Assembly (NCBI RefSeq): GCF_007748115.1
Contig: NZ_CP036289.1
Span: forward strand, 3,968,001 to 4,032,000
Direction of reading: 5' to 3'
From: Bremerella volcania
GTDB taxonomy: Bacteria > Planctomycetota > Planctomycetia > Pirellulales > Pirellulaceae
Length of the DNA stretch: 64,000 bases
Shown: positions 28,240-45,069 of the stretch, one piece after another
How the letters are laid out: the number at the start of each line of letters is the position of its first letter
Position numbering within the stretch: position 1 is the stretch's first letter
Notes under the pieces: generated by a model
The model's database searches: none
What the model saw: the letters and a program-made list of their open reading frames with translations, nothing else
What the model was told of the DNA's origin: nothing
Position numbers and translations under genes: made by a program

Positions 28240-29823
28240 TTAAAACTGCAGGCTGTACTGCGTCCAGAAAAAGTCGGCGTCTCCGTCGAACACGGCGGGA
28301 TTAATCGCGTTCTGATCCTGGAAGTAAGTTCCGGTGAAGAAGTGCGAGTAACCAAAGATGATGTCCGACCGTGGCGTTAGTTGGCACTTGGCAAGGAAGT
28401 CGATTTCCTGACCCAGGTAACGCGAACCAGCCGGCGTGGTGTTCGGATAAGGATTGTTCGTCACGGTGTACGGAACGTCATCCGAGTCTTGTCGATTGAA
28501 GACATGATACCAGGCAATCAGCGTCCACGCATCGCAAGGCTTGGCCGTCAGTTGGACGTTCAAGTCTTCAATGTTGTTCCGAGCAAACAAGTCCATCCAG
28601 CCCAGGTAGGCGTGCCCCAGTGGGAACAATTGGTTGAAGCCGTTGCTTTGGATCGCGTCGCCAGATGCCCAGTCGTAATAGACCATGACCTTTGGCTTCC
28701 AGGCCATCTCTTTGAACTGGTGACCAAACCCGAGGGTAAAGAACCCTGCGTTGTGATCGTTACCCATGAACTCGCCAAACTGATAGGCACCTTCCATGTC
28801 GTAAAGAATCGAGTGCTTCTCACCGTTCACGCGGCTACCGAACGTTTGGTAACGAAACGGTGCGGCATTGTTCTCGTAACCCAACCAGTACAGGTCAATC
28901 GTGCCAAGTTCGCTTTTCTTGTAGGTAGTCCAAAGTCCGTAGAACGATTGGTCCTGGTTTTCCGAGTCCCAGTCGCGGAGGTCCTTCTTCAGCGGACGGG
29001 TCAGGAAACCGTCGATGTCCAAGGCATCGCTGCGGTAGTAGACCTTGAAACCGTCGAATCGTCGACGAATGTTCGCCCAGTCCAGGGGCGAAACGAGACG
29101 TTGGCTGCCATATAGCAGTTCTTGACGACCAACGCGGCCATACCAGGCACCATCGCAGGTTTCCATCAACTTCCCGTCGATGAAGAAGTTGTTCATTTCC
29201 CAGTAGTTTTCATCGATCGGGCGAGGCGGAGCGGTCTCGAACTCACTCACGGCATGCAGCATTTCTGCATAAACGCGAATGTTTTCGTTCACTTCGTAAT
29301 TCGCAAACAGACGCAAGCGATGCAGCAGAAAGTCATCGTCGACGCCGTTCAGGAAGGGCTTCATGTTCTGTTCGTGATGATATCGAGCACGATATTCACC
29401 ACCGATATCCAGAGCACCGCAATCACCAACACAGATTCGCTTGAGGTCTTCGCCCAACAGGCAACCGTCATAGCACGGATCACACAGATAGGTGAAGTCG
29501 TTGTCGAAGTAGAGTGGCTTGTAAGCGCTGGCTGCTTTCTTATTCAACTCGGCGACCTTTTTGGGATCACAGCCAGGGACGCCCGACATGTCCATCGTCG
29601 ACGATTCAGCGTATTCGACGTTGGAAGTGCTCGTGGCAATGGGCACGGCCGGAATCATGTCCGACGGCGAGGCAATGGTCTCGTCCGAGACACGCGTTAC
29701 CGGGGCGTTCTCAAGAAGTGCCGATTGAGGCGGTACCAAGTCTTGCGCATGAAGTAGAAATGGCGTAGCCCCACCATAGCAAACTGCCAAAGCAGTCAGC
29801 CATGAAGTCATGGAATGGGTCAT
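28240..29823 (-). CDS. Alginate-export-type outer-membrane porin
   Basis: 527 residues from the ATG at 29823 (MTHSMTSWLTAL), preceded by AAGGA at 10 bases; a second in-frame ATG at 29841 is possible. A Sec signal peptide ends near LLHAQ. After a linker containing a Cys-pair segment (CDPKK, CDPCYDGCLLGEDLKRICVGDCG), the body is an AlgE-like beta barrel: DIGGEYRARYHHEQNMKPF, DDFLLHRLRLFANYEVNENIRVYAEMLHAVS, WYGRVGRQELLYGSQRLVSPLDWANIRR and a C-terminal FFWTQYSLQF ending in an aromatic residue, as expected for a barrel. It is divergent from the nitrate cluster; a role in uptake of an anionic substrate is possible but not shown. Confidence 0.83.
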   Translation of the reverse strand: MTHSMTSWLTALAVCYGGATPFLLHAQDLVPPQSALLENAPVTRVSDETIASPSDMIPAVPIATSTSNVEYAESSTMDMSGVPGCDPKKVAELNKKAASAYKPLYFDNDFTYLCDPCYDGCLLGEDLKRICVGDCGALDIGGEYRARYHHEQNMKPFLNGVDDDFLLHRLRLFANYEVNENIRVYAEMLHAVSEFETAPPRPIDENYWEMNNFFIDGKLMETCDGAWYGRVGRQELLYGSQRLVSPLDWANIRRRFDGFKVYYRSDALDIDGFLTRPLKKDLRDWDSENQDQSFYGLWTTYKKSELGTIDLYWLGYENNAAPFRYQTFGSRVNGEKHSILYDMEGAYQFGEFMGNDHNAGFFTLGFGHQFKEMAWKPKVMVYYDWASGDAIQSNGFNQLFPLGHAYLGWMDLFARNNIEDLNVQLTAKPCDAWTLIAWYHVFNRQDSDDVPYTVTNNPYPNTTPAGSRYLGQEIDFLAKCQLTPRSDIIFGYSHFFTGTYFQDQNAINPAVFDGDADFFWTQYSLQF

Positions 29824-30284
29824 TGGTCGTTGTTCCTTCAACGAATAGTCAATCCGCAGGTCAGTCCGTTTCGTGGGGTATTGCAGATTTCGTCCTCACC
29901 AATTGCGGTTCTCCAGGGGATTTGGGAAGGATGTTGCAAATACGTTCTTTTGGTGGTTGGGCTGAGCAACCTTTGTCCGCAGGTGGTGTCAGAATGACCG
30001 CGCATCTGAGGTGGCCGCGCAAATAATGCGCTCCATGAATGCCGCACATGCTGACTGGGGTTGCATGGTAGCGCGGTCATTTTCTTCTCTTCGGAGAAAG
30101 ACAATACAAGCGTAACCCTATGCAAAACAAAGTGTTACGAAGTGGTCGTTTTGTTTTGGCACACTCGTTGCGATTCCAACCAGTGCCACGTCAGCCACGT
30201 TGCACTGCGCATCAATGCCGCTCATTGCACCATTGTCAGAAACCTTGCCCCTCCCTTACTCCGAATCATTTGCAGGAATCGAGC
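29824..30284. promoter_or_regulatory. Divergent regulatory region between porin and nitrate cluster
   Basis: 461 bases without a supported gene. It holds the porin promoter on the minus strand (not identified) and the sigma-54 promoter of the nitrate cluster. A pair CAAAACAAA (30123-30131) / TTTGTTTTG (30150-30158) forms an inverted repeat whose right arm overlaps the -24 element. A small TTCTC-TTCG-GAGAA hairpin lies near 30085. I cannot identify an activator binding site with confidence. Confidence 0.55.
30156..30173 (+). promoter_or_regulatory. Sigma-54 (-24/-12) promoter of the nitrate uptake/reduction operon
   Basis: TTGGCACACTCGTTGCGA matches the sigma-54 consensus TGGCAC-N5-TTGC. The GG (30158-30159) and GC (30170-30171) are separated by exactly 10 bases, the strict sigma-54 spacing. 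Transcription would begin near 30183, giving a leader of about 100 bases to the ATG at 30285. This rules out the upstream in-frame start at 30120. Confidence 0.85.
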
Positions 30285-31778
30285 ATGAACTGGACTGGAC
30301 TTTGGAATCGCCACGCTCTTACCGCTGGACTGCTAGCGGTTGTTCTGTTGGCAGGCTGCGCGGAATCGAAACCGACTGGCCCCAGCTTGGATGAGCTAGA
30401 TCTAAGTGCCTTGGCGGCGACCGTCGACGCTGAAGCGACAACATCGACAGACGACGCGAAGCCAACGGAAACGGAAACCGTGGCCACGCTTGCCGCCCCG
30501 GAAAAGAACAACCTGAAGTTGGGCTTCATCAAGTTGACCGACTGCGCTCCGCTGGTGATCGCCAAAGAAAAAGGGTTCTTCGCCGACGAAGGCCTTCAGG
30601 TCGATGTGGAAGCCCAGCCGAACTGGAAAACGCTGCTCGACCGTGTGATCAACGGCGAACTGGACGGAGCCCACATGCTGTCCGGCCAGCCGATCGCCGC
30701 GACGATCGGCATCGGCACCGAGGCCCACATCATTACCGCCTTCACGATGGATTTGAATGGCAACGGCATCACCGTCTCGAACAACATCTGGCAGAAGATG
30801 CAAGAAAACGATGCCAAGCTGAAAAGCCCTACCCCGCCCCATCCGATTTCGGCCGACTCCCTTCGCCCGGTCGTCGACGAGTACAAGGCCAGCGGAACGC
30901 CCCTGAAGATGGGCATGGTCTTTCCCGTTTCCACGCATAACTACGAACTACGGTACTGGCTCGCCGCGTCGGGTATTCACCCCGGCATGTATACCGAAAC
31001 CGACACCGTCGGTGAGACCAACGCCGACGTCCTGCTTTCGGTGACGCCCCCTCCGATGATGCCCACCGTACTGGAAGCCGGCAATATCCAAGGCTACTGC
31101 GTCGGTGAACCATGGAATCAGCAAGCGGTCGCCAAAGGGATCGGTGTTCCAGTGACCACCAACTACGACGTCTGGAAGAACAATCCGGAAAAGGTGTTTG
31201 GCGTTACCAAACGCTGGAACGACGAAAACCCCAACACCCACATCGCCGTCGTCAAAGCACTGATTCGTGCTGGCAAGTGGCTGGACGAAACCGATGCGGA
31301 CGGCAAGTTGGTCAATCGCGAAGAAGCCTGCCGCATCCTGGCCAAACCAAACTACGTGGGTGCCGACTACGACGTGATTAAGAACTCGATGACCGGCTTC
31401 TTCTACTTTCAGAAGTCGGATAAGCGTCCGATGCCTGACTTCAATGTCTTCTTCAAGTATCACTGCACCTACCCTTGGTACAGCGACGGCGTCTGGTTCC
31501 TGACGCAGATGCGACGCTGGGGACAGATCACCGAGCCCAAATCGGCCCAGTGGTATGACGAAACGGCCAAGAAGATCTACCGACCTGACGTCTACCGGAA
31601 GGCCGCCGAAACGCTGGTTACCGCAGGTCAAATGACCGCAGACGAGATCCCACCCAAGGACACTGACGGCTACAAGCCACCAACCGAAAAGGGAGATTTC
31701 ATCGACGGCATCGTCTACGACGGCCATGATCCGATTGGTTATCTCAACTCGCACACCATTGGCAACAAAGATAACTAA
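30285..31778 (+). CDS. nrtA: Nitrate-type ABC transporter substrate-binding lipoprotein (NrtA/CmpA family)
   Basis: 497 residues from the ATG at 30285. A lipoprotein signal peptide with lipobox LLAGC (Cys near residue 25) is followed by a Thr/Ala-rich linker and then the NrtA/CmpA fold: [78 protein letters not shown] and [18 protein letters not shown]. In cyanobacteria this family captures nitrate/nitrite or bicarbonate; the nitrate reductase gene downstream favours nitrate. It is the first gene after the sigma-54 promoter, and a GC-rich hairpin lies between it and the permease. Confidence 0.92.
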
Positions 31779-31792
31779 CCGCGTAGTGGGGT

Positions 31793-31828
31793 GGCCGGGG
31801 GAGGCGCAGGCGGAAGCCACCTCCGGCC
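31793..31828 (+). terminator. GC-rich hairpin between binding protein and permease (possible attenuator)
   Basis: GGCCGG...AGG (31793-31804) pairs with CCTCCGGCC (31820-31828), with a 3-base bulge. No T-run follows. Such hairpins after a binding-protein gene often stabilise its mRNA 3' end, so that more binding protein than permease is made. Confidence 0.4.
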
Positions 31829-31885
31829 CGTTACCACGACGCCAGCGATACCCACGACATCGATCAAACCGTACGAAAGATTCGC

Positions 31886-33589
31886 ATGAAGTACAAAATC
31901 ATCCGCATTCTGGACGTCGCCGGACTCCGCGTCTTCGAGCCGGTCGTGCTGCTTTGCTACGGCGAAGATCCGAAGCAGCAGCTCAAACAAATTGGCCTCT
32001 ACATCGCCATTCCCATCCTGGTGATGGTTGCCTGCGTAGTCGCCTGGGACCAGATCGGCCCGCGCATTAAAACGCGTGCCGGCGAGGTTCCCACGCCAGG
32101 TCAGGTCGTCAAAGCGTACGACGGCATCGCCGATTTCCACAATCGAGAATACACCAAGGTCAGCGACTACAACGAAGCAGGCGAAGGTCGAGAGAAAGCG
32201 TTGGCGGCGACCCAGGAAGAAATCAAATCGTTGGACGCTGACTGGGAAGCCATCAGCCAGGAAAGCGAAGCGCTGCTCAACAAATTGATCGCCAAGATTC
32301 CCGCAGCCGCTTCCAGCGAGAAGGCAACCATCGAAAACGATTGGAAGAAGCTGAACGACGATCTGGCCGCAGCCACGGCGACCGCGACCGACGAGGCTCG
32401 CCAGAAGTTCGCCTTCGTTGAAGGGATATCCGCTCAATTCGTTTCGGCCAGCCTGTCCAAACTTGCCGACGCAGTAAGTTCGCAAGAGCAAGCCTACAAG
32501 CAGGAACAACAAACACGAGCCAAGGCCTTGGTCGCCCTGGCCAGTAAGATTCCCGCGGACGACTACAAACAGAAGGTCGAGTACGTTCAGTTGGTCAATC
32601 AGCATTTGCAGAAGACCAATGATGAGAACGAACACCTCAAAGCACTCCGTTCGGAGCTTTCCGAGCGACGCGGAAAATCGCTGCCGGAAGTGGAGTCATT
32701 GAGACAACTAATCAGCGCCACTGGCCAGAAGGCCGAGTTCCTGAAAACGCGCGTCAACCTGCTGACCGAAGGCAACCGCGAGCAAAAGGTCGCCAAGGCG
32801 TCGTCTGAAATGGAAGGCCTCAAGCGGAAGTACGCCACTGCCAGCGGTCCAGAGATGTTCGCCTTGGCTCAGCAGTTGATTCAGCGTGAAGAACGAATCA
32901 ACACGATTGCCGGCTCCGAGTTCGCGAAGCCGCCGACCTTCTTCGATCAGATCTGGACGAGCCTCAAGTGTGTGTTCACCGGCTTCTTCATTGCCACGGC
33001 CATCGCCATTCCGATCGGCGTTTGCTGCGGTATGAGTCGGGTGTTCATGGCCTCGATGACTCCGCTGATCTCGCTGTTCAAACCGGTATCCCCCATCGTC
33101 TGGCTACCAATCGTGTTCTTCATCGTGGGGGCCTTCATTACCCGGCCGGACGAAGCGTGGATTCAACCGTCGTTTCTTAGCTCGGCCATCACCGTGGCAC
33201 TTTGCTCGCTGTGGCCCACGCTGGTCAATACGGCCCTGGGTGTTTCGGCAATTGACCAGGACCACCTGAATGTGGCGCGAGTTTTGCGACTCGGGCTCTG
33301 GGATCGCCTGACCAAAATCATCATCCCCTCCGCCCTGCCGCTAATATTCACCGGTCTGCGAATCTCGCTGGGCGTGGGCTGGATGGTGCTGATTGCCGCG
33401 GAACTTCTTTCCAGTAGCCCAGGGCTCGGGAAGTTCGTGTGGGACATGTTCAATAACGGGTCGTCGGCAACGTTCGCCCAAATGTTTGTTGCCTGCGGTT
33501 TTGTGGGCGTCATTGGGCTATTGCTCGATCGAATCATGATCGTCTTCCAACGGATGGTCAGCTTCGACGGCGCTCCAACGGCCCTGTAA
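31886..33589 (+). CDS. nrtB: Nitrate-type ABC transporter permease with large coiled-coil insert (NrtB family)
   Basis: 567 residues, about twice the length of ordinary NrtB (about 270). A first membrane helix at about 36-54 ([19 protein letters not shown]) is followed by roughly 290 residues that are hydrophilic, rich in E, K, A and Q, and predicted coiled coil (about 85-345). Then comes a complete BPD_transp_1 permease domain (about 350-555) with [30 protein letters not shown] and the ATPase-contact loop [37 protein letters not shown]. The insert lies between helices 1 and 2, probably on the periplasmic side if helix 1 enters from the cytoplasm. It sits between the binding-protein and ATPase genes. 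Confidence 0.9.
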
Positions 33590-33628
33590 ACCATGATTGC
33601 CAACGCCATACCTGAAGGAAAACGCCAC

Positions 33629-34474
33629 ATGGCAATCCTCGAACTCGACAATGCCACCGTCGGATTTGGCGAATCGCACCGTCGCTATACGGTGCTCGAA
33701 GAAGCCAATTTACAGGTTCGTGAAAATGAATTCGTCGCGATCATTGGATTCTCTGGCAGCGGGAAGTCGACCCTGATTTCCCTGCTGGCAGGGCTCCTTC
33801 TGCCTGATGAAGGGGCAGCCCGCTTCAAAGGTAAGCAGATGAAGGGGCCGGGTCCTGATCGCGGGATCGTTTTTCAGAATTATTCTCTGCTTCCCTGGCT
33901 GACCGTTCATGGCAACATCGAACTGGCCGTGAAGCAGGTCTTTCCGAAGATGAAACGGGGTGAGCGACGCGATTACGTCCAGCATTACATCGACATGGTC
34001 AGCCTGACCGGTAGTGAAGGAAAGCGTCCCTCCGAGCTATCCGGCGGGATGCGACAGCGATTGTCTCTCGCGCGAACGTTGTCGATGCAGCCGGAAGTGC
34101 TTCTGCTGGATGAACCGCTGAGCGCCTTGGATGCCCTCACGCGAAGCGTTCTGCAAGACGAAATCATTCGTCTCTGGGAAGAAGATCGCCGGACCGTGGT
34201 GATGGTGACCAACGACGTCGACGAAGCCGTCCTTATGGCCGACCGCATCGTTCCGCTAACCCCGGGACCTTCGGCCAGGCTAGGGCGGGAGTTTCCCGTC
34301 ACGCTCGATCGACCGCGCGATCGTGCCACGCTGAACTTCAATCCCGAGTTCAAGAAGCTCCGCAACGAGATTACACGCTACATGATGGGGATCAACGAAG
34401 AGGCGAAGCAGCTTCGCGTCGCTTCAGATGTGGTCCTTCCCGATGTCGAGCCCATTCGTATCGGCGTCGCCTAA
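33629..34474 (+). CDS. Nitrate-type ABC transporter ATPase (NrtC/NrtD family), first copy
   Basis: 281 residues from the ATG at 33629, preceded by AAGGAA at 8 bases; the in-frame ATG at 33593 would add 12 residues. Walker [11 protein letters not shown]-loop [11 protein letters not shown], signature [14 protein letters not shown], Walker [13 protein letters not shown] and the switch region [10 protein letters not shown] (Asn where most ATPases have His) are visible. The His-to-Asn change in the switch suggests that one of the two nucleotide sites of a heterodimer with the next gene is less active. It ends 20 bases before the second ATPase. Confidence 0.92.
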
Positions 34475-34494
34475 CGTTCACCCAAGGAAACGTC

Positions 34495-35397
34495 ATGTCA
34501 CAAGAGAACCGCTTCGTCGAAATGTACCGCCTCGTCAAGGCGTACCCCAATCCGTTCGGCGATGACGTGAAAGTGGTTGACGGCTTCAACCTGATTTTGA
34601 AAAAGGGGGAAGTCGTCAGTCTGATCGGCCACTCAGGCTGCGGCAAGTCGACCGTGCTGACCATGGTATCGGGGCTCAATCCGATCACCTCCGGCAGCGT
34701 CGTCGTGGCCGGCAAGGAAATCTCCGGCCCTGGTCCGGATCGCAGTGTGGTGTTTCAAGCTCCGTGCCTGCTTCCCTGGATGACGGCCATGCAAAACGTA
34801 CGGATGGGGGTCGACCGTGTTTACCCGCATGCGACTCGTAGCGAGCGCCGCCAGATTTGCGAATACTACCTGAGCGTCGTCGGCCTAGCCGATTCGATGG
34901 ACAAGTACCCTCGCGAAATGTCGGGCGGCATGCAGCAGCGCGTCGGCATCGCCCGCGCGATTGCCCTGAAGCCCAACATGCTGCTTTTGGACGAACCGTT
35001 TGGGCGACTCGATTCGCTCACCCGCATGGAACTGCAGGACGTCATCCTAGGCATTCTCGATAAAGAAAAGATCACGACCATGCTCGTCACGCACGACGTC
35101 GACGAAGCAATCTACATGGCCGACCGCATCTGCATGATGACCAACGGCCCCGCCGCCAAGGTGGGTCAGGTGCTGGAGCTTCCTTTGCCGCGTCCACGAA
35201 ATCGCGCCGAGACGCTCGAGCATCCGTTGTATTACGAACTCCGCGGCTCGCTTGTTTCCTTCCTGGAGGAACAGGAACGCCACAAGCATCACAAACCGAA
35301 GACGGAAGAGCCAGAGAAGCCCGCACAACAGCTGAACGTTACCCTGAGCGACGAAGAGGATGCGCCGGTATCCGAAAACGTCACCGCCAACGCTTAG
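34495..35397 (+). CDS. Nitrate-type ABC transporter ATPase (NrtD family), second copy
   Basis: 300 residues. Walker [11 protein letters not shown]-loop [11 protein letters not shown], signature [16 protein letters not shown], Walker [13 protein letters not shown] and switch [10 protein letters not shown] with the normal His. The C-terminal 45 residues are charged and probably disordered. Together with the first ATPase it forms the NrtC-NrtD-type heterodimer; unlike cyanobacterial NrtC neither copy has a C-terminal binding-protein-like regulatory domain. Start ATG at 34495 follows AAGGAAACGTC. Confidence 0.92.
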
Positions 35398-35421
35398 TCT
35401 TCAAAGAGGTACAAAAAGAAC

Positions 35422-36285
35422 ATGACGACAACGATGGCACCTTCGGTGTTGACGAGCGTATCGGTCTGGATTCATAACGAAACCGCCGGACAACTGACGT
35501 CTGCTTACGGCTACCCGGCAGCACCGGAAGGCCCACTAACCCATGATCTGATTCAAACGTCAATCCACGACAGGCGTTCGGCGATTCGTAGCGTCGACGA
35601 CGGCACGCTCGAGATTGCTTTGCCGATTCTAATCACCAGCGAAGTCGTCGCTGCTGTTTTGTTTACCGTCCACACGTCGGACGACTGCAAGATCGCGCTC
35701 GAACGTTGGTCGCGTACCGATCGCGATGAACTGGGGCTCGCCGAATCGGCTTACCGTGGCCTGGCGCACTTTGAAACGATCAGCCCCTATGTCAAGTTTC
35801 CGCGCGGGTCGGGCCTGCCGGGCGAAACCTGGGACGATCGCAAGTGTCGCATCATCGCGCGGATCGATCAAGCGAAAGCGTTCATGCGTGCCGCAGGGGC
35901 TCGCAAGGAAGGTTTGCGTTACGGCCTGGGCATTCCCGTCATGGCCACCGAGCACGAATTGGAATGCGTGCTGGTCATCCTCAGCACGGTCGACTTCCCC
36001 TTTCAACAAGCCATGGAAACGTGGCTTCCCAGTGAAGACCAAACCGAGCTTTCGCTGGTGCAAACAAGCTATGCCGTGGGCATTTCCTCGCCCCAGCGAT
36101 CAAACGTCAGCTACGGCGACGGCATCGTCGGCAGGTGCTATGCGTCACGTGTTCCCGTGATGATGCACAATGCCGATGAGGACGCATCGCTTGTCCCGCT
36201 GTTCGACCAGGGGACCCGCTTTGCCTTGGCGTTGCCGATCTTCAACGGCGATCGATTGGTCCAAGTTCTCACTCTCTTTGGCTAA
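35422..36285 (+). CDS. GAF-like domain protein of the nitrate operon
   Basis: 287 residues, no signal or membrane segment. It looks like two consecutive GAF-type folds: the first contains FPRGSGLPGETWDDRK and EGLRYGLGIPVMATEHELECVLVILS (about 115-200), the second contains VSYGDGIVGRCYASRVPVMMHNADED and GTRFALALPIFNGDRLVQVLTLF (about 230-287). No DNA-binding, kinase or cyclase output domain is present. Given its place between the transporter and reductase genes, it may be a cytoplasmic sensor of nitrate or redox state that acts on another regulator; this is inference. An AGAGG ribosome site precedes the ATG. Confidence 0.7.
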   Translation: MTTTMAPSVLTSVSVWIHNETAGQLTSAYGYPAAPEGPLTHDLIQTSIHDRRSAIRSVDDGTLEIALPILITSEVVAAVLFTVHTSDDCKIALERWSRTDRDELGLAESAYRGLAHFETISPYVKFPRGSGLPGETWDDRKCRIIARIDQAKAFMRAAGARKEGLRYGLGIPVMATEHELECVLVILSTVDFPFQQAMETWLPSEDQTELSLVQTSYAVGISSPQRSNVSYGDGIVGRCYASRVPVMMHNADEDASLVPLFDQGTRFALALPIFNGDRLVQVLTLFG

Positions 36286-36300
36286 GTTAACGGAATTCGC

Positions 36301-37911
36301 ATGGCCATTGGCGAACAAAACTCGGAGCTGCTAATTGCACCAGAATTCAACCTGGTCGAGATGCTGCTGTCCGAACAACGCGACCTGACGGCCGTCGAGC
36401 GATTCTCGCAGCGGCACGATCAACACGCGGATCCCCTGTTGGCTCCGACCTATCGCGAACTGATTCCCCTCTCCGAACCTGGTCCCGGAGAGCAGTACGC
36501 GTTCGAGGTCGACCTCGACGCCTGTTCTGGCTGCAAAGCGTGCGTCGTCGCCTGTCACAACATGAATGGCCTGGAAGAATCCGAGACCTGGCGGCGCGTC
36601 GGCACGCTGCAAAGCTCGGTTCCTTCCAAACCAGTCGTCCAGCACGTAACGACCGCCTGCCATCACTGCGTCGACCCAGGCTGCCTGTCGGGGTGCCCCG
36701 TTCAAGCTTACGAGAAAGACCCAAAGCTAGGCATCGTCGTTCATCTCGACGATCAGTGCATCGGTTGCAAGTACTGCACGCTGATGTGCCCCTACGACGT
36801 CCCCAAGTTCAGCGAAGCGAAAGGCATCGTTCGCAAATGCGACATGTGCCGCCATCGTCTGGCCGAAGGAGAAGCACCGGCGTGCGTTCAGTCATGCCCC
36901 AACAGCGCCATCAAGATCACCGTCGTCAACCAGGAAGCCATCCGCAGCGAAGCGAAGGACGGGCACTTCCTCCGCGGAGCAGCGAATCCCCGAATCACCA
37001 ATCCAGCGACACGTTACGTCGGCAAGCATCGCCTGGATGCCGAGATGGTTTCGGCCGGGTCCCAAGAGGTCGTCCCCAACCATGCTCACTTGCCGCTAGT
37101 CGGTTTGCTGACCCTCACCCAGGCCGCACTCGGCATGCTTGTCGCCAGCGTGGTTTGTCAATGGGCAGGCACTGGCGGCATGGTCAGCGCGGTGCTGGCG
37201 ACGCTTGCCGCCATGGCAGGCCTCGCGGCCTCGGGGGCTCACCTCGGCAGACCCATGTACGGCTTCCGAGTGTTCCTCGGTTTACGCACCTCGTGGCTCA
37301 GCCGCGAAGCCGTCCTCATGCCGGCTTTCGCAGGCCCACTTGTCGGTTACACGGCGTCGTACTTCATTCCATTTTTAGAGCCATTCCAAGGCATGATGGC
37401 CTTGGCGGCCATCGGCGGCGGGGCAATCACGATCTTCTGTTCTGCGATGATTTACATCGTCACGAAGCGTCCGTTCTGGCAGTCCTCACTCACGTTCAGC
37501 AAGTTCGGCACGACGATCGTCTTGTCGGGTCTGGCCGTTTGGAACTTGGAAAGTGCGCTGGCTGACCAATCCCCTTCGATCATCAGCTTGGCCCTGATCA
37601 TCGCCGTAACCATGGCCCGGCTAGCATTGGAATATCAAGTCCTTTCGCACGTCTCGCGTCCGACGACCGATCCGATTGCCCGCTCGGCGCGGTTATTACT
37701 TGGCCCACTCAAAGCATGGCACCTGGCACGGATCGGGTTGTGGATACTCGGCGGAATCATCTTGCCGGCAGTAACCATGGCCCTAGCAAGCCCCGCTTCA
37801 GTGATCTGTGCGGCCGTCGCGCTGGCCAGCCTGGCCGCGGCAGAGCTGATTGATCGCGGGCTCTACTTCGCTGCTGAATCCACTCCAGCCATGCCCAATT
37901 TACCTAAGTAG
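36301..37911 (+). CDS. Fused Fe-S (DmsB-like) and membrane-anchor (DmsC-like) subunit
   Basis: 536 residues. After about 65 residues comes a ferredoxin-type domain with four [4Fe-4S] sites: CSGCKACVVACH (Cys75, 78, 81, 85), CHHCVDPGCLSGCP, CIGCKYCTLMCP, and CDMCRHRLAEG...CVQSCP. From about residue 263 there are eight or so membrane helices of the DmsC type. In DMSO reductase the two parts are separate subunits that carry electrons from quinol to a molybdoenzyme. Here they are one chain, directly upstream of the nitrate reductase (13-base gap), so the reductase is probably quinol-driven and membrane-bound with its catalytic side in the cytoplasm. Confidence 0.9.
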   Translation: MAIGEQNSELLIAPEFNLVEMLLSEQRDLTAVERFSQRHDQHADPLLAPTYRELIPLSEPGPGEQYAFEVDLDACSGCKACVVACHNMNGLEESETWRRVGTLQSSVPSKPVVQHVTTACHHCVDPGCLSGCPVQAYEKDPKLGIVVHLDDQCIGCKYCTLMCPYDVPKFSEAKGIVRKCDMCRHRLAEGEAPACVQSCPNSAIKITVVNQEAIRSEAKDGHFLRGAANPRITNPATRYVGKHRLDAEMVSAGSQEVVPNHAHLPLVGLLTLTQAALGMLVASVVCQWAGTGGMVSAVLATLAAMAGLAASGAHLGRPMYGFRVFLGLRTSWLSREAVLMPAFAGPLVGYTASYFIPFLEPFQGMMALAAIGGGAITIFCSAMIYIVTKRPFWQSSLTFSKFGTTIVLSGLAVWNLESALADQSPSIISLALIIAVTMARLALEYQVLSHVSRPTTDPIARSARLLLGPLKAWHLARIGLWILGGIILPAVTMALASPASVICAAVALASLAAAELIDRGLYFAAESTPAMPNLPK

Positions 37912-37923
37912 AAAGAGGCCAAC

Positions 37924-40149
37924 ATGTCGACCGTAACTCCACCCAGCCGGCTACAGCAGTTGATTTACGCCAAGGATGGAAGTCTCACTCGCGACTTGCT
38001 GCTCTACCCTGGGGAATATGGCCTGGGGAAGGTTCCCGCTGGAGCGAAACCCAACGGCACAACGACCTCGGTCTGCGGTTTCTGCTCGACCGGCTGCGGA
38101 CTCGAGTTGCACATGAAGGATGGCCAGGCAGTCAATCTCAGCCCAGCGGTCGACTGGCCGGTGAATCTGGGCATGGCTTGTCCCAAGGGATGGGAATCGA
38201 TCACGGTTCTCAAAGCCCACGACCGCGCCACGCAGCCGCTGCTCAAGGGTGCCGATGGGAAGCTGGCTCCTGTCTCGTGGGACGAGGCGATGAAGACCTT
38301 CTGCGCGCGGTTCAAAGACATTCAAGCCAAACACGGCAACGATTCGGTGGCGTTCCTCAGCACGGGGCAGATCGCGACCGAAGAGATGTTCTTCCTGGGC
38401 TCGCTCGCCAAGTTCGGAATGGGCATGCTGCATGGCGACGGCAACACTCGGCAATGCATGGCCACCGCTGTGGTCTCCTACAAAGAGTCCTTCGGCTTCG
38501 ACGCGCCACCGTTTACCTACGCCGACTTTGAAGAATCCGACGTCCTGGTCTTCGTCGGTTCCAATCTCTGCATCGCCCATCCGATCATGTGGGAACGGGT
38601 TCTCCGCAATCCGCACGATCCGAAGATCATCGTCATCGATCCCCGCCGCACCGAGACCGCGGTTGCGGCAACGCACCACTTGCCGCTGCGTCCCAAGACC
38701 GACATGGCATTGCTCTACACGATCGCCAATGAACTGATCCAAAGAGGCTGGATCGACGAGTCGTACATCGCCAGCCACACCAACGGCTTCGACCAGTTCA
38801 AACAGCATGTCGCACCGTACCAACTGGAAGACAGCTTGGCCAACTGCGGGCTCGAACCTTCGGCCGTCATGGAAGTCATCCAGGCCATTCACGATGGCCA
38901 GCGAGTCTCTTTCTGGTGGACCATGGGGGTCAACCAAAGCCACCAAGGAGTCCGCACCGCCCAGGCGATCATCAACCTGGCCCTGATGACCGGCAACATC
39001 GGCCGCCCTGGCACCGGTGCCAACAGCATCACCGGGCAATGCAACGCGATGGGGTCTCGTCTGTTCAGCAACACGACCAACCTGGTCGGCGGTCACGACT
39101 TCACCAAGGAAGAAGACCGGCAGAAGATCGCCGACATTCTCGACATCCCGGTCGTCAACATCCCGACCGAAAACAGTTGGTCGTACGACGGCATCATGGA
39201 AGGGATTCGGCGCGGCGATATACGGGGCCTGTGGGTGATCGCCACCAATCCGGCTCATTCATGGATTCATCAACAGGAAGCCAAGGAAACACTCGAAAAG
39301 CTCGACTTCCTCGTGGTTCAAGACATGTACCACTCGACCGAAACGGCTGTCCTTGCCGATCTGATGTTGCCCGCGGCCGGCTGGGGAGAGAAAGAAGGAA
39401 CGTTCATCAACTCCGAGCGTCGCCATGGTCTGCATAAGAAAGTGGTACCAGCGCCGGGCGAGGCCTTGGCCGACTTCCAGATCTTCCGCCTGGTGTCTCA
39501 CTACTGGGGCTGCGATTCGATGTTTTCCGACTGGAAGACACCGGAAGACGTGTTTCAAGTGATGAAAAAGTGCTCGGCAGGACAGCCCTGCGATATCACC
39601 GGAATTCGTGACTATCGGATGTTAGACGATGCCCGCGGCATTCAATGGCCCACCAAAGAGGCAGAAAGTAGCGGCGACGATTGGATGCCTCAGCCGCAGC
39701 GGCGCCTGTTTGAAGATGGTCAGTACTTCCACCCAGATGGCAAAGCACGCTTTATCTTCGAACAACCGGAAGCCCCTGGCGAGGTGCCTAATGATGCCTT
39801 CCCGCTACATCTGTTGACCGGTCGTGGTACGGCAGCGCAGTGGCATACGCAAACCAAGACGTCCAAGTCGGCCGTGCTGCGAACGCTTTACTCGACCACC
39901 CTGCTCGTCGATATCAACCCGCAAGATGCCGATGCCCTCATGATCGAGCCGCACGATTGGGTCCAGGTGCAATCGGCTCGTGGTGAGATTCGCGCTCGCG
40001 CCAACGTCACCTCCAGCGTCCAGCCAGGGCACGTCTTTCTGCCGATGCATAACGAGGTAACCAATCAGTTGACGTACCCTCAATTCGATGCCTATTCGCG
40101 TCAGCCGTCTTACAAAAACGCAGCCGTTCGCATCGTCAAAAGCGTCTAG
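37924..40149 (+). CDS. nasA: Molybdopterin nitrate reductase, catalytic subunit (NasA/NarB type)
   Basis: 741 residues. The N-terminal [4Fe-4S] motif is Cys51, Cys54, Cys58 (CGFCSTGCG) and Cys86 (CPKG). The molybdenum ligand is probably Cys178 in [10 protein letters not shown], as in NasA/NarB/NapA. Other family signatures are [58 protein letters not shown] and the C-terminal [17 protein letters not shown]. There is no Tat or Sec signal, so it is cytoplasmic. It lacks the C-terminal BFD domain of proteobacterial NasA, in line with receiving electrons from the upstream Fe-S/DmsC-type subunit. It is the last gene of the first transcription unit. Confidence 0.92.
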
Positions 40150-40244
40150 GAATTGGGCATTCTGCCACCAAGACAGGCAGCGTTTTGCCTCTGCCTTTTG
40201 CACTGAACACAAAATGACCACGTCAATTGGGAGGCCAACAAAAT

Positions 40245-40270
40245 AAAATAGGACCACATGGTCCTATTTT
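40245..40270 (+). terminator. Perfect 12-bp dyad after the nitrate reductase gene (terminator or operator)
   Basis: AAAATAGGACCA (40245-40256) and TGGTCCTATTTT (40259-40270) are perfect inverse complements separated by 2 bases. As RNA this gives an 11-bp stem with an ACAT loop and U-rich 3' end, which fits a bidirectional terminator between the two units. It also lies 42 bases upstream of the next sigma-54 promoter, so an operator is possible. Confidence 0.6.
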
Positions 40271-40310
40271 AAAGGCGAATCGACTTGCTTCAGGTTTCGC
40301 CGCTGATCAA

Positions 40311-40328
40311 GTGGCACATTCTTTGCAT
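40311..40328 (+). promoter_or_regulatory. Sigma-54 (-24/-12) promoter of the redox-protein unit
   Basis: GTGGCACATTCTTTGCAT fits TGGCAC-N5-TTGCA exactly, with GG (40313-40314) and GC (40325-40326) 10 bases apart. A start near 40338 leaves about 42 bases before the GTG at 40380 and excludes the in-frame start at 40227. Confidence 0.87.
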
Positions 40329-40379
40329 TCACGCTCATTCAATTCATCGCTGCGAGAATGCCGCCGGGAAAGACTCCAC

Positions 40380-42380
40380 GTGCACAAGTTACAGCCACAA
40401 AACGACAGCCCCACGTTGGCCTCTACCAAGGCGGCCCGAATGGTGGTCGTTGGTAACGGCATGGTGGGACACGCATTCTGTCAGTCGCTGGTTCGTCGCG
40501 GTGCGATGCAACAGTGGCAGGTCGATATCTTCGGCGAAGAACCGCACGTCGCCTACGACCGCGTCCGCTTGACCAAACTGTTTAGCGACACCCAATCCTC
40601 CCTTACCCTTTCCCCCAAGGTCTGGTACGAACAAGTCGGACTGAACCTGGTTACCTCGCAAAAGATCAATGCGATCGATCGGATCAACCGAGAGGTCCTT
40701 GGCCAAGACGGTAAGCGTTATCCCTACGATCGTCTCGTGCTGGCAACCGGCAGCCGTCCCTTTGTTCCCCCAATTGAAGGTGTGAATCTACCAGGCGTCT
40801 TTCTCTATCGCACGATCGACGACCTGCAGAAGATACGCGATTACGCCGAGAACTGCCGCTCGGCCGCCGTCATGGGTGGCGGATTATTGGGCTTGGAAGC
40901 CGGCAAGGCGGCACTCGATCTGGGACTGGAAGCACACGTCCTGGAGGTCGCTCCGACTCTGATGCCGCGGCAACTCGATACGGCCGGTGGAGCACTTTTG
41001 AAATCGCGCGTCGAATCGCTGGGCGTGCGCGTCCATGTTCTATGTCGCTGCGAACGCATCGAGCCCTGTAGCAAAGGCTTGCAACTCCACTTCACTAACG
41101 GCGAGACGCTTCATGTGGATATGCTCATCATTTCGGCCGGCATTCTCCCCCGCGATGAACTGGCACGCGAAGCGGAACTAGAGATTGCCCATCGCGGCGG
41201 GATCGTGGTCGACGATCAGCTTCGCACGTCCGATCCTCACATCTATGCGATCGGCGAGTGCGCCGTGCATCGCGAGAAGCATTACGGGCTCGTCGGTCCC
41301 GGTATCCAAATGGCCGAGGTCCTGGCGGCCAACTGCTGCGGGGAAAACCAGCAGTTCCTCTACGGCGATCAGTCGGCCAAGCTGAAGTTAATGGGGGTCG
41401 ACGTCGCGGCCCTTGGCGATGCCCTGGGTGAAACGCCCAACTCGCTCATCATCTCTCACAGCACGAACGACGCCTATCGCAAACTCATTTTCGCTGGCAA
41501 TTGCGTTGTTGGTGCAACATCCGTGGGGGAGTGGAACGAAATCGATCGCATTCGCGACTTGATCACCCATGCGCGTCGCTTGTGGCCATGGCAGATTTCC
41601 CGCTTCCGCCGCACCGGCAGACTTTGGCCGGAAGACACCCTGAACAGCCCCTGGGACTGGCCCGACAGCGCTGTGATTTGCAGCTGCGTGGGGGTCACCA
41701 AGGGACAGATTGGCGAAGTGACTCGCGACGGCGCCGCGGATGCTTCGGCGGTGACCACACTTACCCGAGCCTCGAGCGTCTGTGGAACGTGCCGACCCCT
41801 CGTCCAACAACTATGTGGCGAACGCCAGGCTCCTCCCCAGACGATGTCGTGGAAGATCCTCTTGGCCAGCAGCCTGGCGACCTTCGTCTTCATCATCGCG
41901 ATGCTTGGGCTCGGTCCCCTCCCCTTTGCTGATTCGGTTCAGTCGACATGGCATACGATTGATGCCCTGTGGCGCAGCGAAACTCCGAAACAGATCACCG
42001 GCTACACGATCTTCGGTTTAACGGCCCTGGGTCTGGCTTTTTCACTGCGCAAACGGATTGCCCGAATTACCTGGGGTGACTTTGCCTGGTGGCGTGTCGC
42101 GCACGCGATTCTAGCGACCCTTGCCGTTGTGGGGCTCCTGCTGCACACCGGGTTTCACTTTGGTTCCAACTTGAACTTCGCGCTGGCGGTCACCTTCGTG
42201 GCGGTCAACTTCACCGGCAGCCTGACCGGGATGCTTGTCTCGCTCGAGAACCGCATTACGGGGGTCCTGGGCATTTGGATTCGCCGCTGGCGTCCGCGCC
42301 TGGTGTGGCTGCACCTGATGTTGTCTTGGCCGCTGCCGGTCTTGCTGCTGTTTCACGTCATTACGGTCTATTACTTTTAA
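40380..42380 (+). CDS. FAD/NAD(P) oxidoreductase fused to [2Fe-2S] BFD domain and cytochrome b-like membrane domain
   Basis: 666 residues from a GTG at 40380 preceded by GGGAAAG; an ATG at 40440 is an alternative. Residues about 20-320 are the NirB-like FAD/NAD module (VVGNGMVGHAF, LATGSRPFVPPI, VMGGGLLGLEAGKAAL, DPHIYAIGECAVH). A BFD-type [2Fe-2S] domain follows (CSCVGVTKGQI...CGTC, about 430-480). The C-terminal 180 residues have about five membrane helices with paired His residues (WWRVAHAIL, LLLHTGFHFG, LVWLHLML, LLLFHVITV), like a two-heme cytochrome b. The siroheme domain of NirB is absent. It could pass electrons between NAD(P)H and the membrane or periplasmic hemes encoded next. Confidence 0.87.
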   Translation: MHKLQPQNDSPTLASTKAARMVVVGNGMVGHAFCQSLVRRGAMQQWQVDIFGEEPHVAYDRVRLTKLFSDTQSSLTLSPKVWYEQVGLNLVTSQKINAIDRINREVLGQDGKRYPYDRLVLATGSRPFVPPIEGVNLPGVFLYRTIDDLQKIRDYAENCRSAAVMGGGLLGLEAGKAALDLGLEAHVLEVAPTLMPRQLDTAGGALLKSRVESLGVRVHVLCRCERIEPCSKGLQLHFTNGETLHVDMLIISAGILPRDELAREAELEIAHRGGIVVDDQLRTSDPHIYAIGECAVHREKHYGLVGPGIQMAEVLAANCCGENQQFLYGDQSAKLKLMGVDVAALGDALGETPNSLIISHSTNDAYRKLIFAGNCVVGATSVGEWNEIDRIRDLITHARRLWPWQISRFRRTGRLWPEDTLNSPWDWPDSAVICSCVGVTKGQIGEVTRDGAADASAVTTLTRASSVCGTCRPLVQQLCGERQAPPQTMSWKILLASSLATFVFIIAMLGLGPLPFADSVQSTWHTIDALWRSETPKQITGYTIFGLTALGLAFSLRKRIARITWGDFAWWRVAHAILATLAVVGLLLHTGFHFGSNLNFALAVTFVAVNFTGSLTGMLVSLENRITGVLGIWIRRWRPRLVWLHLMLSWPLPVLLLFHVITVYYF

Positions 42381-42384
42381 GCTC

Positions 42385-43740
42385 ATGTCGTCCTGGATTT
42401 ACGCCCTCGTCTGGCTGGCTCTCTCGCTACTGGTTGGTAGTAGCCTGGGGGTTGTTCTGTTGTCGGACGACAGCGCCCTGAAGCAGACCTATTTGCCTGG
42501 CAAGACGACGCACGGCCACTATCAAATCGAAATGAAATGCTCGGCCTGTCACGATCCCGACCTGGGCGTCACCAGCAAATCATGTCTTGAATGTCACGAA
42601 AACGAACTGCGGGAAGCGTTGGACACCCATCCGGCCAGCAAATTCAACGACCCAACCAATGCCCCACGACTGGCCGTCCTAGATGCTCAGAACTGTATTG
42701 CCTGTCACAAGGAACACGTCCCGCACGAGACACACCCCATGGGAGTCACGCTGCCGCAAGACTTTTGTTTCCATTGCCATCAAGAGATCGCCGACGAGCG
42801 TCCCAGCCATAAGAACCTCGACTTCCACACCTGCCAGACCAGCGGCTGTCACAACTACCACGACAATCGCACGCTCAACGAGAACTTCCTCCACAAGAAT
42901 CTCGACCAGCCTGATCATCTGGTCGAGCAAGTCGTCCCCGAGCGCAACGCTTTAGCCCGCTACCTGGCCAGCCAGGACGAGCCTGTCAAACCGCTGCAGG
43001 CGCAAGACGCGGCCTTCCATTCGAGCGTCGCCAGAGACGAAGCATTGATCGACGCCTGGGCCGGCTCCGTGCATGCTCAAGTCGGCGTGAACTGCAACGA
43101 TTGCCATACCCAGGATCAAAAGCCCGAGACGTGGCAGAACCACGTGACGCACGAAACCTGTCAAAAGTGCCATGCAGACGAAACGAGCGGCTTTTTAAGC
43201 GGCATGCACGGAATGCGTCTGTCCCAAGGGCTTTCCCCCATGTCGCCAGGTGATGCACGCTTGCCGATGAAGCACTCCTCGGTGCATGCCGAGTTGACGT
43301 GCAGTTCGTGCCACTCGCCTCACGATGCCGACGTGCGCGTCGCGGCGGTTGACTCGTGTGTGAAGTGCCACAACGACGAACACACGCTGGCCTATCAGCA
43401 GTCCCCTCACGCTCGACTCTGGCGGGACGAACTAGCAGGCGATCTGCCGCCTGGCAGCGGCGTTTCGTGTGCGACCTGTCACATGCCGCGCGAAGAGCAC
43501 GGCAGTAGCAAGGCCCCTAAGGTCAAAGTGCAGCACAATCAAAACGACAACTTACAGCCCAACGAGAAGATGGTCCGTGGCGTCTGCATGCATTGCCACA
43601 GCCTTCAGTACAGTCTCGACGCGATGCACGATCCACACCAGATCGAAAGCAACTTCAGCTCCACGCCGCAACAGCCGTCGGTCGAGAGTCTGGAGATGGT
43701 TCGCCGCTGGTTCGACGAGCGGAAGTCGCGACGTCCATGA
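42385..43740 (+). CDS. Membrane-anchored multiheme cytochrome c (10 CxxCH plus one CX4CH)
   Basis: 451 residues. An N-terminal signal anchor (about 5-26) is followed by heme motifs in order: CSACH, CLECH, CIACH, CFHCH, CQTSGCH (CX4CH), CNDCH, CQKCH, CSSCH, CVKCH, CATCH and CMHCH. Many extra His residues can be distal ligands. The first seven and the last four form two groups separated by a hydrophilic linker at about 180-225. It is not a plain NrfA (no CxxCK) or NapC. It starts 4 bases after the FAD-cytochrome b gene, so an electron chain between them is likely. Whether it reduces nitrite, stores electrons, or donates to the quinone pool is open. Confidence 0.88.
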   Translation: MSSWIYALVWLALSLLVGSSLGVVLLSDDSALKQTYLPGKTTHGHYQIEMKCSACHDPDLGVTSKSCLECHENELREALDTHPASKFNDPTNAPRLAVLDAQNCIACHKEHVPHETHPMGVTLPQDFCFHCHQEIADERPSHKNLDFHTCQTSGCHNYHDNRTLNENFLHKNLDQPDHLVEQVVPERNALARYLASQDEPVKPLQAQDAAFHSSVARDEALIDAWAGSVHAQVGVNCNDCHTQDQKPETWQNHVTHETCQKCHADETSGFLSGMHGMRLSQGLSPMSPGDARLPMKHSSVHAELTCSSCHSPHDADVRVAAVDSCVKCHNDEHTLAYQQSPHARLWRDELAGDLPPGSGVSCATCHMPREEHGSSKAPKVKVQHNQNDNLQPNEKMVRGVCMHCHSLQYSLDAMHDPHQIESNFSSTPQQPSVESLEMVRRWFDERKSRRP

Positions 43741-43809
43741 TTCATTCCGACCCATCGCTAACTGTTGTTCCCCTTTTGCCACGCAACCCTTGAATTTGGG
43801 AGTCTATCT

Positions 43810-44418
43810 ATGAGCAAGTTCCTCGCTTTGGCCTGTGGAGTGATCATCGGCGGGGGTGCCGCCGCGGCACTGACAGGCTGCGGCAACAGCACACCACAGC
43901 CCGTAGAAGCCGACGGTGGAATCACGCCCAGGCAATTCGCCAACGCCGTGCACGCGGTGATGATGGCTGACCGTACGGTTTACGCCAAGCACATCGTGAC
44001 CCGCCTGAAGGAGCAAGGAAGCGAGGTCAGTGCCAGCGAGTATTGGCAAGACGAAGAAGGAACGATTCCCTTGCCCGCGCAAATGTTTCGCATGGGCGCC
44101 GAGATCGTCGACGGCAACGAGGAAGCAGGTTTCACCTACGCGCTGAAATCGCTCTGGCCGCTCAATCCGCAGAATGAACCGAAGTCTCCGCAGGAGATCG
44201 AGGGGCTGAAATACATCGTCGATCACCCAGGCGAGAACTTCTACGGCGAAGAGAAACTGGGAGACAAGACCTACTTCACCGCCGTTTACGCCGACAAAGC
44301 CGTCGCGAAAGCATGCTGGGATTGCCACAACAACCACGCCGATCGCGGCGACGATTACCCCGAATTCAAAGAAGGGGACGTCATGGGAGGCGTCGTCGTT
44401 CGCATTCCTTTGGATTAA
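43810..44418 (+). CDS. DUF3365-type single-heme lipoprotein (putative redox sensor)
   Basis: 202 residues from the ATG at 43810, preceded by GGGAG. A lipoprotein signal ends with LTGC (Cys near residue 21). The body matches the DUF3365 / Tll0287-like heme domain: KYIVDHPGENFYGEEKLGDKTYFTAVYADKAVAKACWDCHNNH, with one CWDCH heme motif, and a C-terminal GDVMGGVVVRIPL. Such domains usually sit at the extracytoplasmic end of sensor proteins. Here it is a separate lipoprotein, next to a HAMP-like membrane protein. Confidence 0.83.
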   Translation: MSKFLALACGVIIGGGAAAALTGCGNSTPQPVEADGGITPRQFANAVHAVMMADRTVYAKHIVTRLKEQGSEVSASEYWQDEEGTIPLPAQMFRMGAEIVDGNEEAGFTYALKSLWPLNPQNEPKSPQEIEGLKYIVDHPGENFYGEEKLGDKTYFTAVYADKAVAKACWDCHNNHADRGDDYPEFKEGDVMGGVVVRIPLD

Positions 44419-44583
44419 GAAACAGCGAAGGCCACGTCGTCACAATCACTATGTTCCACACGACCCGATACGCGGCGGAACTGTTTGCGAAGCAATGTCC
44501 TCTGCCCGGGCTTGACGGTGGCGACCTGGCCGAGAAATCGTAGTCTTCCTAAGGACACCTACTGGGACCTTGGGAGCAAACCA

Positions 44584-45069
44584 ATGTCGAAGCGAGAGAA
44601 GCACGAACGACGGCGGCTGTTTTGGGTAGACCCGAAACTCCAAGGCGGTCTCGTCCTGCGTGCGGTCATGCACTGGGGCATCTGCCTGTTGAGCGTCGGC
44701 ACGGTGCTGGTCGTGGGCGCGGCGTTTAGTGACCTGCATGCACCGGTCAGCGCGGTAATGCGAATGGTGTTCGACTACTTTGTTCCGGCCGTGCTGGTAA
44801 GTCTATTGGTGCTGCCGATCATCGTGCTCGACACGATTCGACATAGCAACCGTCTTGTCGGATCGGTGGCCCGCTTTCGAAATGCCATGCAGCGATTAGC
44901 TGACGGAGAAACGACAAGCCCCTTGATCGTCCGGGACGGGGATTGCTGGAAGACCTTGGCCGACCAGTTCAATCGAATTGCCTTGCGTCTGGAAGAGTTG
45001 GAGACCGCTTCCAGCACGAGCCAAAAGAAAACCTCTTCCTGCCATCAGGAAGAGGTCGTTTCTACTTAG
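44584..45069 (+). CDS. Two-helix membrane protein with HAMP-like segment and no output domain
   Basis: 161 residues from the ATG at 44584 (GGGAG ribosome site). Basic N-terminus, two membrane helices (about 23-47 and 60-80), then a HAMP-like stretch (VARFRNAMQRLADGETTSPLIVRDGDCWKTLADQFNRIALRLEELE). No kinase, cyclase or chemotaxis output follows. The last 13 codons run through a strong terminator hairpin (45031-45056), so the tail SSCHQEEVV is unlikely to be a conserved sequence; an ancestral stop may have been lost. With the preceding DUF3365 lipoprotein it could form a split sensor. Confidence 0.72.
   Translation: MSKREKHERRRLFWVDPKLQGGLVLRAVMHWGICLLSVGTVLVVGAAFSDLHAPVSAVMRMVFDYFVPAVLVSLLVLPIIVLDTIRHSNRLVGSVARFRNAMQRLADGETTSPLIVRDGDCWKTLADQFNRIALRLEELETASSTSQKKTSSCHQEEVVST
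45023..45056 (-). terminator. Terminator of the minus-strand acidic-protein gene, inside the convergent gene
   Basis: A perfect 11-bp stem (ACCTCTTCCTG / CAGGAAGAGGT, 4-base loop, 45031-45056) is followed on the minus strand by TTTTCTTTT. It lies 28 bases after the minus-strand stop at 45085. It overlaps the last codons of the plus-strand gene that ends at 45069. Confidence 0.85.

Follow-up and report, generated by a model that had tools for sequence, protein, structure and literature searches.

A candidate NADH-to-periplasm electron conduit accompanying nitrate assimilation genes in Bremerella volcania and other bacteria

Introduction

Nitrate assimilation is usually pictured as a wholly cytoplasmic pathway. 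Among described systems, Bradyrhizobium japonicum narK-bjgb-flp-nasC likewise combines a nitrate ABC transporter, an assimilatory reductase, a flavoprotein and a single-domain globin in one nitrate-regulated set; its globin and flavoprotein are reported to be paired with NasC and to serve nitric oxide (NO) detoxification (PMC4724949). Here we analyse a 64,000-nt stretch of the planctomycete Bremerella volcania (contig NZ_CP036289.1, positions 3,968,001 to 4,032,000; 'the window'), in which a nitrate operon (unit 1) is followed by a second unit (unit 2) encoding a NirB-like flavoprotein fused to a membrane domain (P0008), an 11-heme cytochrome (P0009) and a heme-Cache lipoprotein (P0010). We propose that unit 2 is an NADH-oxidising electron-export module that accompanies nitrate assimilation as an evolutionarily mobile accessory and most likely reduces or buffers NO and nitrite, a reading that we favour while placing it a little short of an even chance.

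Results

The inventory and order of both units given by an earlier reading of the letters alone (the first-pass annotation) were borne out: ABC transporter, nitrate-reductase-like enzyme, Fe-S/DmsC protein, FAD-BFD-membrane fusion, 11-heme cytochrome and Tll0287-type lipoprotein (Table 1). P0008 matches the NirB model TIGR02374 with 450 bits over model positions 1–466 of 794 and has no Pfam match to PF01077 or PF03460, so the siroheme NIR_SIR half is missing. Its frame is open from 40227, with a likelier start near GTG 40380, 3′ of the promoter. The head extends from 40380 to about 41830. Across 53 sequences (52 of 62 locus sequences, retained after length filters, plus that of the window), all four BFD cysteines are invariant (53/53), and the four histidines of the membrane domain, arranged as two pairs 14 residues apart, are conserved in 53, 53, 53 and 52. 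An acidic residue ends the second strand in 41/53, which only suggests NADH over NADPH as the cofactor. The AlphaFold2 model has a predicted local distance difference test (pLDDT) score of 89.8; among the 50 Foldseek matches listed, the FAD part alone was matched. In Polyangium (L092 and L093) the flavocytochrome lies inside longer frames of 1297 and 1252 aa.

P0009 carries 10 CXXCH motifs and one CX4CH motif, 11 in total, and no CXXCK motif. In a set of 57 sequences (56 of 59 locus sequences passing length filters, and the window's own), all 11 heme motifs are invariant, as are exactly 11 further histidines. Since 11 hemes face exactly 11 other invariant histidines, the protein looks like a wire and not a nitrite reductase: the pattern fits bis-His hemes arranged in a chain and, indirectly, disfavours an open catalytic site of the NrfA, ONR or hydroxylamine oxidoreductase (HAO) type. 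Similarity to characterised families is low. No family cut-off was reached, DmsE giving a weak match of 59.5 bits (cut-off 192); Foldseek with the predicted structure (pLDDT 83.2) returned nothing at E ≤ 0.001, HAO being the nearest and a weak match (E 1.7e-3 to 4.9e-3, TM 0.23–0.31), and a sequence search of the PDB gave weak matches only. Eight genomes of one planctomycete family, f44 (G167, G188, G224, G239, G270, G285, G333 and G407), have cytochromes that match P0009 weakly and only over its C-terminal half, of which they may be the source. Within the window, a protein of 950 aa that has several CXXCH motifs (21243-24095, −), encoded beside the sensor kinase gene, resembles a large planctomycete membrane-type cytochrome c.

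The Tll0287-type lipoprotein P0010 exceeds its Pfam cut-off, and its CXXCH motif is present in 58/59 module homologues. Apart from heme motif and lipobox it has no cysteine past residue 45, so the Cys/His axial ligation of Tll0287 is not expected here; a PDB sequence search found nothing useful. The HAMP label given earlier to P0011 fell below the curated cut-off (16.1 bits, Pfam cut-off 25), and a PHROGs search was uninformative. P0011 occupies the slot that a globin holds in other genera, and among the compared loci its homologue occurs only in the window genome (G000) and G114. A single-domain globin is the next gene in 10/12 family genomes with unit 2 outside the genus; G107 has none there and in G034 the contig ends. 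The one module globin sequence tested resembled flavohemoglobin in its globin half, matching PRK13289 with 69.8 bits and staying under the cut-off. Further afield, a Neptuniibacter metagenome-assembled genome (L126, 12296-14075) has genes for a truncated globin and a Fer2/FAD/NAD reductase after the module, which together resemble a flavohemoglobin split in two; in Pleionea (L113, 7139-7663), an isolate without a NasC-type or binding-protein match, a hemerythrin-domain gene precedes the module; and a SoxA/TsdA-like diheme cytochrome gene lies near it in L037 (5698-6561) and L068 (6743-7600; Pfam was run on the L037 copy only).

The anatomy of unit 2 (40312-45069) is probably that of an NADH-to-periplasm conduit. 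NADH would reduce the FAD of the P0008 head, from which electrons would pass to the BFD [2Fe-2S] cluster, on to two b hemes in the membrane domain and then, through the 11-heme cytochrome, to the periplasmic heme-c Cache lipoprotein. We propose this path because of the conserved BFD cysteines, the membrane His pairs, the 11 heme motifs with their 11 histidines and the confident models, and from these we infer both cofactor binding and the direction of electron flow. The first-pass annotation had drawn a membrane conduit from NAD(P)H or quinol to periplasmic hemes; the anatomy supports the NAD(P)H branch, and no evidence for quinol was found in unit 2, the DmsC-type anchor of unit 1 being one that could use it.

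Unit 2 is linked to nitrate genes across phyla, in line with the earlier proposal. Samples of 119 genomes from the family and 294 from the phylum were searched, with NasA thresholds of 570 and 560 bits, respectively, that were chosen after the score gap was seen. P0008 with its membrane domain occurs in 14/119 family genomes (split into two frames in G036), and of the 13 besides the window genome, all 13 have the 11-heme gene after it and 12 the Tll0287 gene. NasA (at least 570 bits) was found in 46/119 family genomes, namely 13/14 with unit 2 versus 33/105 without it (Fisher P = 1.3e-5, a value that is too small because the genomes are kin); the sole genome with unit 2 and no NasA match, G063, is an 82% complete draft. 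Of the phylum sample, 25 genomes have NasA of at least 560 bits; these include all 4 in which a full-length cytochrome occurs, two of which belong to the family sample as well. The first-pass annotation would have given up the link if unit 2 lay mostly in genomes and contexts without nitrate genes. Genome content shows the opposite, and location is mixed: within the family, unit 2 stands beside or within ∼5 kb of nitrate genes in 3/14 genomes (G000, G114 and G086).

Beyond the family, named genomes were scanned and yielded 282 relatives, of which the best 80 loci were carried forward. Scripts recognised the flavocytochrome and the cytochrome in 70 loci each, Tll0287 in 58, a globin in 37, the nitrate binding protein in 22, an Alginate_exp-like porin in 19, a small c-type cytochrome in 10, NasA and NirB in 4 each and, by clustering and motif (one checked by Pfam), NasT-like ANTAR regulators in 8; short contigs or the calling of frames explain some of the misses. 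Fifty of the 80 loci, picked by hand, served for counts of NasC/formate dehydrogenase (FDH)-type enzymes and binding proteins: the binding-protein gene lies near the module (within ∼10 kb, in the stretch fetched) in 19/50 genomes of several phyla, where copy number and genome size would lead one to expect 0.29. NF047855 was rejected as a cross-phylum NasA marker, since it also matches genomes with formate dehydrogenases and 0/50 pass its cut-off; the resulting count of 41/50 was not used.

The system had been suggested to belong to planctomycetes, a restriction that the scan removes. Within the best 80 loci, module relatives, 11-heme homologues included, come from Planctomycetota, Poribacteria, Verrucomicrobiota, Lentisphaerota, Pseudomonadota and Myxococcota, with single records of other phyla. 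In a tree whose bootstrap had not fully settled, a branch (100/95) sets 19 named planctomycete sequences apart from the other phyla, and by this topology both a planctomycete invention and a recent transfer were rejected. No description of the module was found in the open literature, a search largely outside subscription journals, so that 'undescribed' is provisional.

Unit 2 is dispensable to its neighbour. Two sister species (G043 and G090) keep unit 1, with NasA at 94 and 92% identity, and lack unit 2: regulator, porin, transporter, GAF and DmsBC genes stand in the window order and are followed directly by the gene for the acidic protein, which in the window comes after unit 2. Downstream of NasA, G043 can be aligned to the window through AAGTGGC[A/G]CA of the unit-2 promoter, where the alignment stops (local score 63, with 35 as the highest of 200 shuffles); this looks like a deletion scar; G090 has no such promoter remnant (score 14). 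Loss is the simpler history, because the more distant G114 carries unit 2 at the same place. A required part for unit 2 in NasA function or the nitrate pathway was therefore rejected.

The first inference had also leaned on the lack of a siroheme enzyme. This is correct for the cluster and wrong for the genome, a 6.5-Mb single contig in which PF01077 has three matches in two genes outside the window: a NirB-like 1043-aa frame at 2.11 Mb, 45% identical to the NirB-type head of P0008, and a 572-aa frame of the NirA/sulfite-reductase type at 2.18 Mb. The absence is thus only local. Just upstream of the NirB-like gene (about 2.115 Mb; L034, 11497-13206) lies a gene for a 569-aa Cytochrome_C554-type protein. 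PF01077 matches occur in 14/14 family genomes with unit 2, on which ground P0009 as a substitute for a missing siroheme nitrite reductase was rejected; among the rows listed, a NirB-length protein is present in 6 genomes and a PF01077 gene within ∼2 kb of NasA in 8 (G034 has both, G067 neither). As PF01077 also covers sulfite reductases, these matches do not prove a nitrite reductase in each genome.

Unit 1 (30157-40149) is, by its gene content, a nitrate uptake and cytoplasmic nitrate-reduction operon. The nitrate ABC transporter that marks a nas cluster is present, with P0004 above its cut-off, P0001 matching PF13379, and P0002 and P0003 below their NCBIfam cut-offs; for P0001, conservation makes ATG 30285 a more likely start than 30120. 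The NasA-like P0007 showed no Tat-like N terminus and lies under every NCBIfam cut-off (best Fdh-alpha 481/666, NasA_Halo 453/1000 and NasC 427/1100 bits), so its label as a nitrate reductase is mostly contextual. Apart from this label and the HAMP of P0011, the domains named earlier were confirmed. DmsBC adjoins NasA in other genera of the family, and the Fe-S/DmsC fusion P0006 is the probable link from quinol to NasA. The GAF protein gene is found again between the genes for transporter and NasA in several of the family's genera and may encode a nitrogen or redox sensor. Upstream, the Alginate_exp porin is possibly for nitrate.

Each unit had been assigned its own sigma-54 promoter, and pattern counts and conservation within the genus agree. 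The window has three copies of TGGCAC-N5-TTGC, with 0.10 expected (0/100 shuffles reach 3), at the heads of unit 1 (30157) and unit 2 (40312) and within the regulator gene (26773-26787, −), and a looser pattern with one mismatch is mildly enriched in the window (5 versus 1.58 expected). The unit-1 site is kept in all 4 species of the genus examined, as TGGCACACCCATTGCG in G043 and G090 and as CGGCACACCTCTTGCG in G114; the unit-2 site reads CGGCGCATTCTTTGCA in G114, the only other species examined with unit 2. TGGYAY-N5-TTGC lies upstream of the flavocytochrome gene in 16/78 loci, a count used for no claim because it includes duplicate genomes and has no chance estimate. Together with the single RpoN gene of the genome and the gene for an enhancer-binding activator, the putative −24/−12 sites are what a sigma-54 regulon would contain. 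The NtrC-type regulator, a homologue of which adjoins unit 1 in G043 and G090, is a candidate activator of both units that would act on these sites, and the hybrid kinase is a candidate upstream sensor, presumably of nitrate. The hairpin between the units is terminator-like and may act as such; an Rfam scan of the window returned no match.

Table 1. Features of the two units and their surroundings (positions within the window)
Feature	Position	Strand	Evidence
Hybrid sensor histidine kinase, PilJ/NarX-like sensor region N-terminal	24190..26460	−	Pfam PilJ 75 bits, HisKA, HATPase_c, Response_reg
NtrC-type response regulator, sigma-54 interaction domain and Fis HTH	26466..27953	−	Pfam Response_reg, Sigma54_activat 170.7 bits, HTH_8
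−24/−12-like site upstream of regulator gene, TGGTACATGAGTTGCA	28021..28036	−	Pattern match; matching site kept in G090
Alginate_exp-family outer-membrane porin	28240..29841	−	Pfam PF13372 251 bits
Sigma-54-type promoter of unit 1 (putative), TGGCACACTCGTTGCG	30157..30172	+	Pattern match; conserved within genus
P0001, nitrate-type ABC transporter substrate-binding lipoprotein (NMT1_2)	30285..31778	+	Pfam PF13379 320 bits
P0002, ABC permease, C-terminal part NtrB-like, long N-terminal extension	31886..33589	+	NtrB model 147 bits, below cut-off 209
P0003, ABC ATPase, NtrC/D-like	33593..34474	+	TIGR01184 289.7 bits, just under cut-off 291.8
P0004, ABC ATPase, NtrC/D	34495..35397	+	TIGR01184 314.7 bits, exceeds cut-off 291.8
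GAF-domain protein	35422..36285	+	Pfam GAF_2; homologues adjoin NasA in other genera
P0006, four-cluster Fe-S protein fused to DmsC-type membrane anchor	36301..37911	+	Pfam Fer4_11, DmsC
P0007, NasA-like cytoplasmic molybdopterin [4Fe-4S] oxidoreductase	37924..40149	+	Pfam Molybdopterin 218 bits
Perfect hairpin between units, AAAATAGGACC-ACAT-GGTCCTATTTT	40245..40270		Sequence
Sigma-54-type promoter of unit 2 (putative), TGGCACATTCTTTGCA	40312..40327	+	Pattern match; kept in G114, truncated scar in G043
P0008, flavocytochrome: NirB N-terminal half (FAD, NAD-binding, Rubredoxin_C, BFD [2Fe-2S]) joined to a membrane domain carrying two His pairs	40380..42380	+	Pfam Pyr_redox_2, Rubredoxin_C, Fer2_BFD
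P0009, membrane-anchored periplasmic 11-heme cytochrome c	42385..43740	+	11 heme motifs
P0010, Tll0287-type (heme c Cache) lipoprotein	43810..44418	+	Pfam PF11845 67.5 bits, cut-off 24.1
P0011, small protein, predicted membrane segment(s), weak HAMP/PilJ-like region	44584..45069	+	Weak Pfam matches under cut-off

Discussion

In our proposal, unit 2 would be expressed together with the nitrate genes and would reduce or buffer the reactive nitrogen (NO and nitrite) formed by nitrate assimilation, and NO in the cytoplasm would fall to the globin that usually accompanies the module, which the flavin head of P0008 may feed with electrons. We infer nitrate induction and the role in NO and nitrite chemistry because of the nitrate linkage, the globins, the truncated globin with its reductase and the hemerythrin near the module, and the Bradyrhizobium precedent; this purpose is a tentative suggestion to which we give well under an even chance. 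The fullest form of the idea, namely an ancient, phylum-spanning and hitherto undescribed system in which the NirB-derived head, the diheme domain and the 11-heme wire keep the envelope free of NO and nitrite with the cytoplasmic globin as a second line, we consider doubtful.

Several observations weigh against the proposal. Some carriers of the module seem to have no nitrate genes: the binding protein is absent in 10/50 genomes and a NasC/FDH-type match at 1e-100 in 9/50, including the isolate Pleionea (G445); any nitrate gene was found in 26/80 best loci, though many contigs are short. Neither the window genome nor G114 has a globin (PF00042), which makes the NO argument indirect for the window genome. 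Stand-alone Tll0287 members are described in a preprint as binding NO weakly and suited to redox roles (PMC12889525). In a beta-proteobacterium (L090, 12034-14455) the module is followed by small cytochrome c, COX2-like and COX1-like genes, which point to oxygen.

The strongest rival is a donor of the NasB/Flp kind, in which the FAD/BFD head feeds the cytoplasmic NasA, or a globin, and the hemes join this pool with the respiratory chain, so that electrons could run either way. NirB-half/BFD proteins are known to feed assimilatory nitrate reductases, and unit 2 co-occurs strongly with NasA. Bradyrhizobium flp is reported to be needed for growth on nitrate and not on nitrite (PMC4724949). Unit 1, however, carries its own Fe-S/DmsC partner, and NasA stands without unit 2 in G043, G090 and 33/46 NasA-bearing genomes of the family, so that we regard such a donor as unlikely. 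Quite unlikely, in our judgement, is an NADH:cytochrome c bypass to a terminal oxidase and oxygen that would balance redox as nitrate assimilation or nitrogen limitation shifts NADH demand. The small c-type cytochromes near the module and the COX2 and COX1-like genes of L090 favour it, but oxidase genes are next door in just that one inspected locus, and the nitrate transporter and NasT neighbours are left unexplained.

Reduction of metals or another extracellular acceptor, with the module resembling a ferric reductase and co-expressed because NasA and siroheme enzymes need iron, we hold to be improbable: the spacing of the membrane His pairs is like that of ferric reductases and NOX, and porins recur near the module, but P0008 has no Pfam ferric-reductase match at E ≤ 0.1, the Alginate_exp porins are not of the MtrB kind and no iron genes were noticed among the recurrent neighbours. 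There is equally little to expect from a split redox or NO sensor made of the heme-Cache lipoprotein and P0011 and fed by the conduit, for which the weak HAMP match and the NO-sensor properties of HAMP-fused heme-Cache domains (PMC12889525) speak, since a P0011-like protein occurs only in two of the compared genomes and neither P0010 nor P0011 has an output domain.

If the electron-export proposal is true, many aerobic heterotrophs that assimilate nitrate would spend NADH on periplasmic hemes and so control reactive nitrogen, or balance redox, beyond the cell membrane. The module's architecture has a membrane wire where NirB has its catalytic half. The module genes are directly testable in cultured bacteria, Blastopirellula marina DSM 3645 (L068) and Alcanivorax nanhaiticus (L119) being two such carriers.

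Comparison with known systems places each part of unit 2 beside a familiar one. P0008 shares its FAD, Rubredoxin_C and BFD parts with NirB, the large subunit of NADH-dependent nitrite reductase, whereas the siroheme/NIR_SIR half is replaced by a membrane domain with two His pairs. With transmembrane reductases of the ferric reductase/NOX type it has in common paired histidines in membrane helices for two stacked b hemes (heme binding in P0008 being predicted) and an NAD(P)H-FAD order of cofactors from inside to outside; it differs in its NirB-type flavin part, the added [2Fe-2S] domain and the absence of a Pfam match to that family. P0009 shares a weak sequence match with DmsE and a weak fold match with HAO among the multiheme cytochromes (HAO/NrfA/ONR and DmsE/MtrA), and differs from them in its eleven hemes, membrane anchor and candidate second histidine for each heme. 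P0010 has PF11845 and the conserved CXXCH in common with the Tll0287/DUF3365 heme-Cache proteins, but has no candidate for the axial cysteine described for Tll0287 (PMC12889525). The Bradyrhizobium set is described as being under NasT control, and ANTAR genes near some module loci suggest the same for those; as described, that set contains no cytochrome b in the membrane and neither a multiheme cytochrome nor a heme-Cache lipoprotein (PMC4724949). The B. volcania genome, for its part, lacks the globin.

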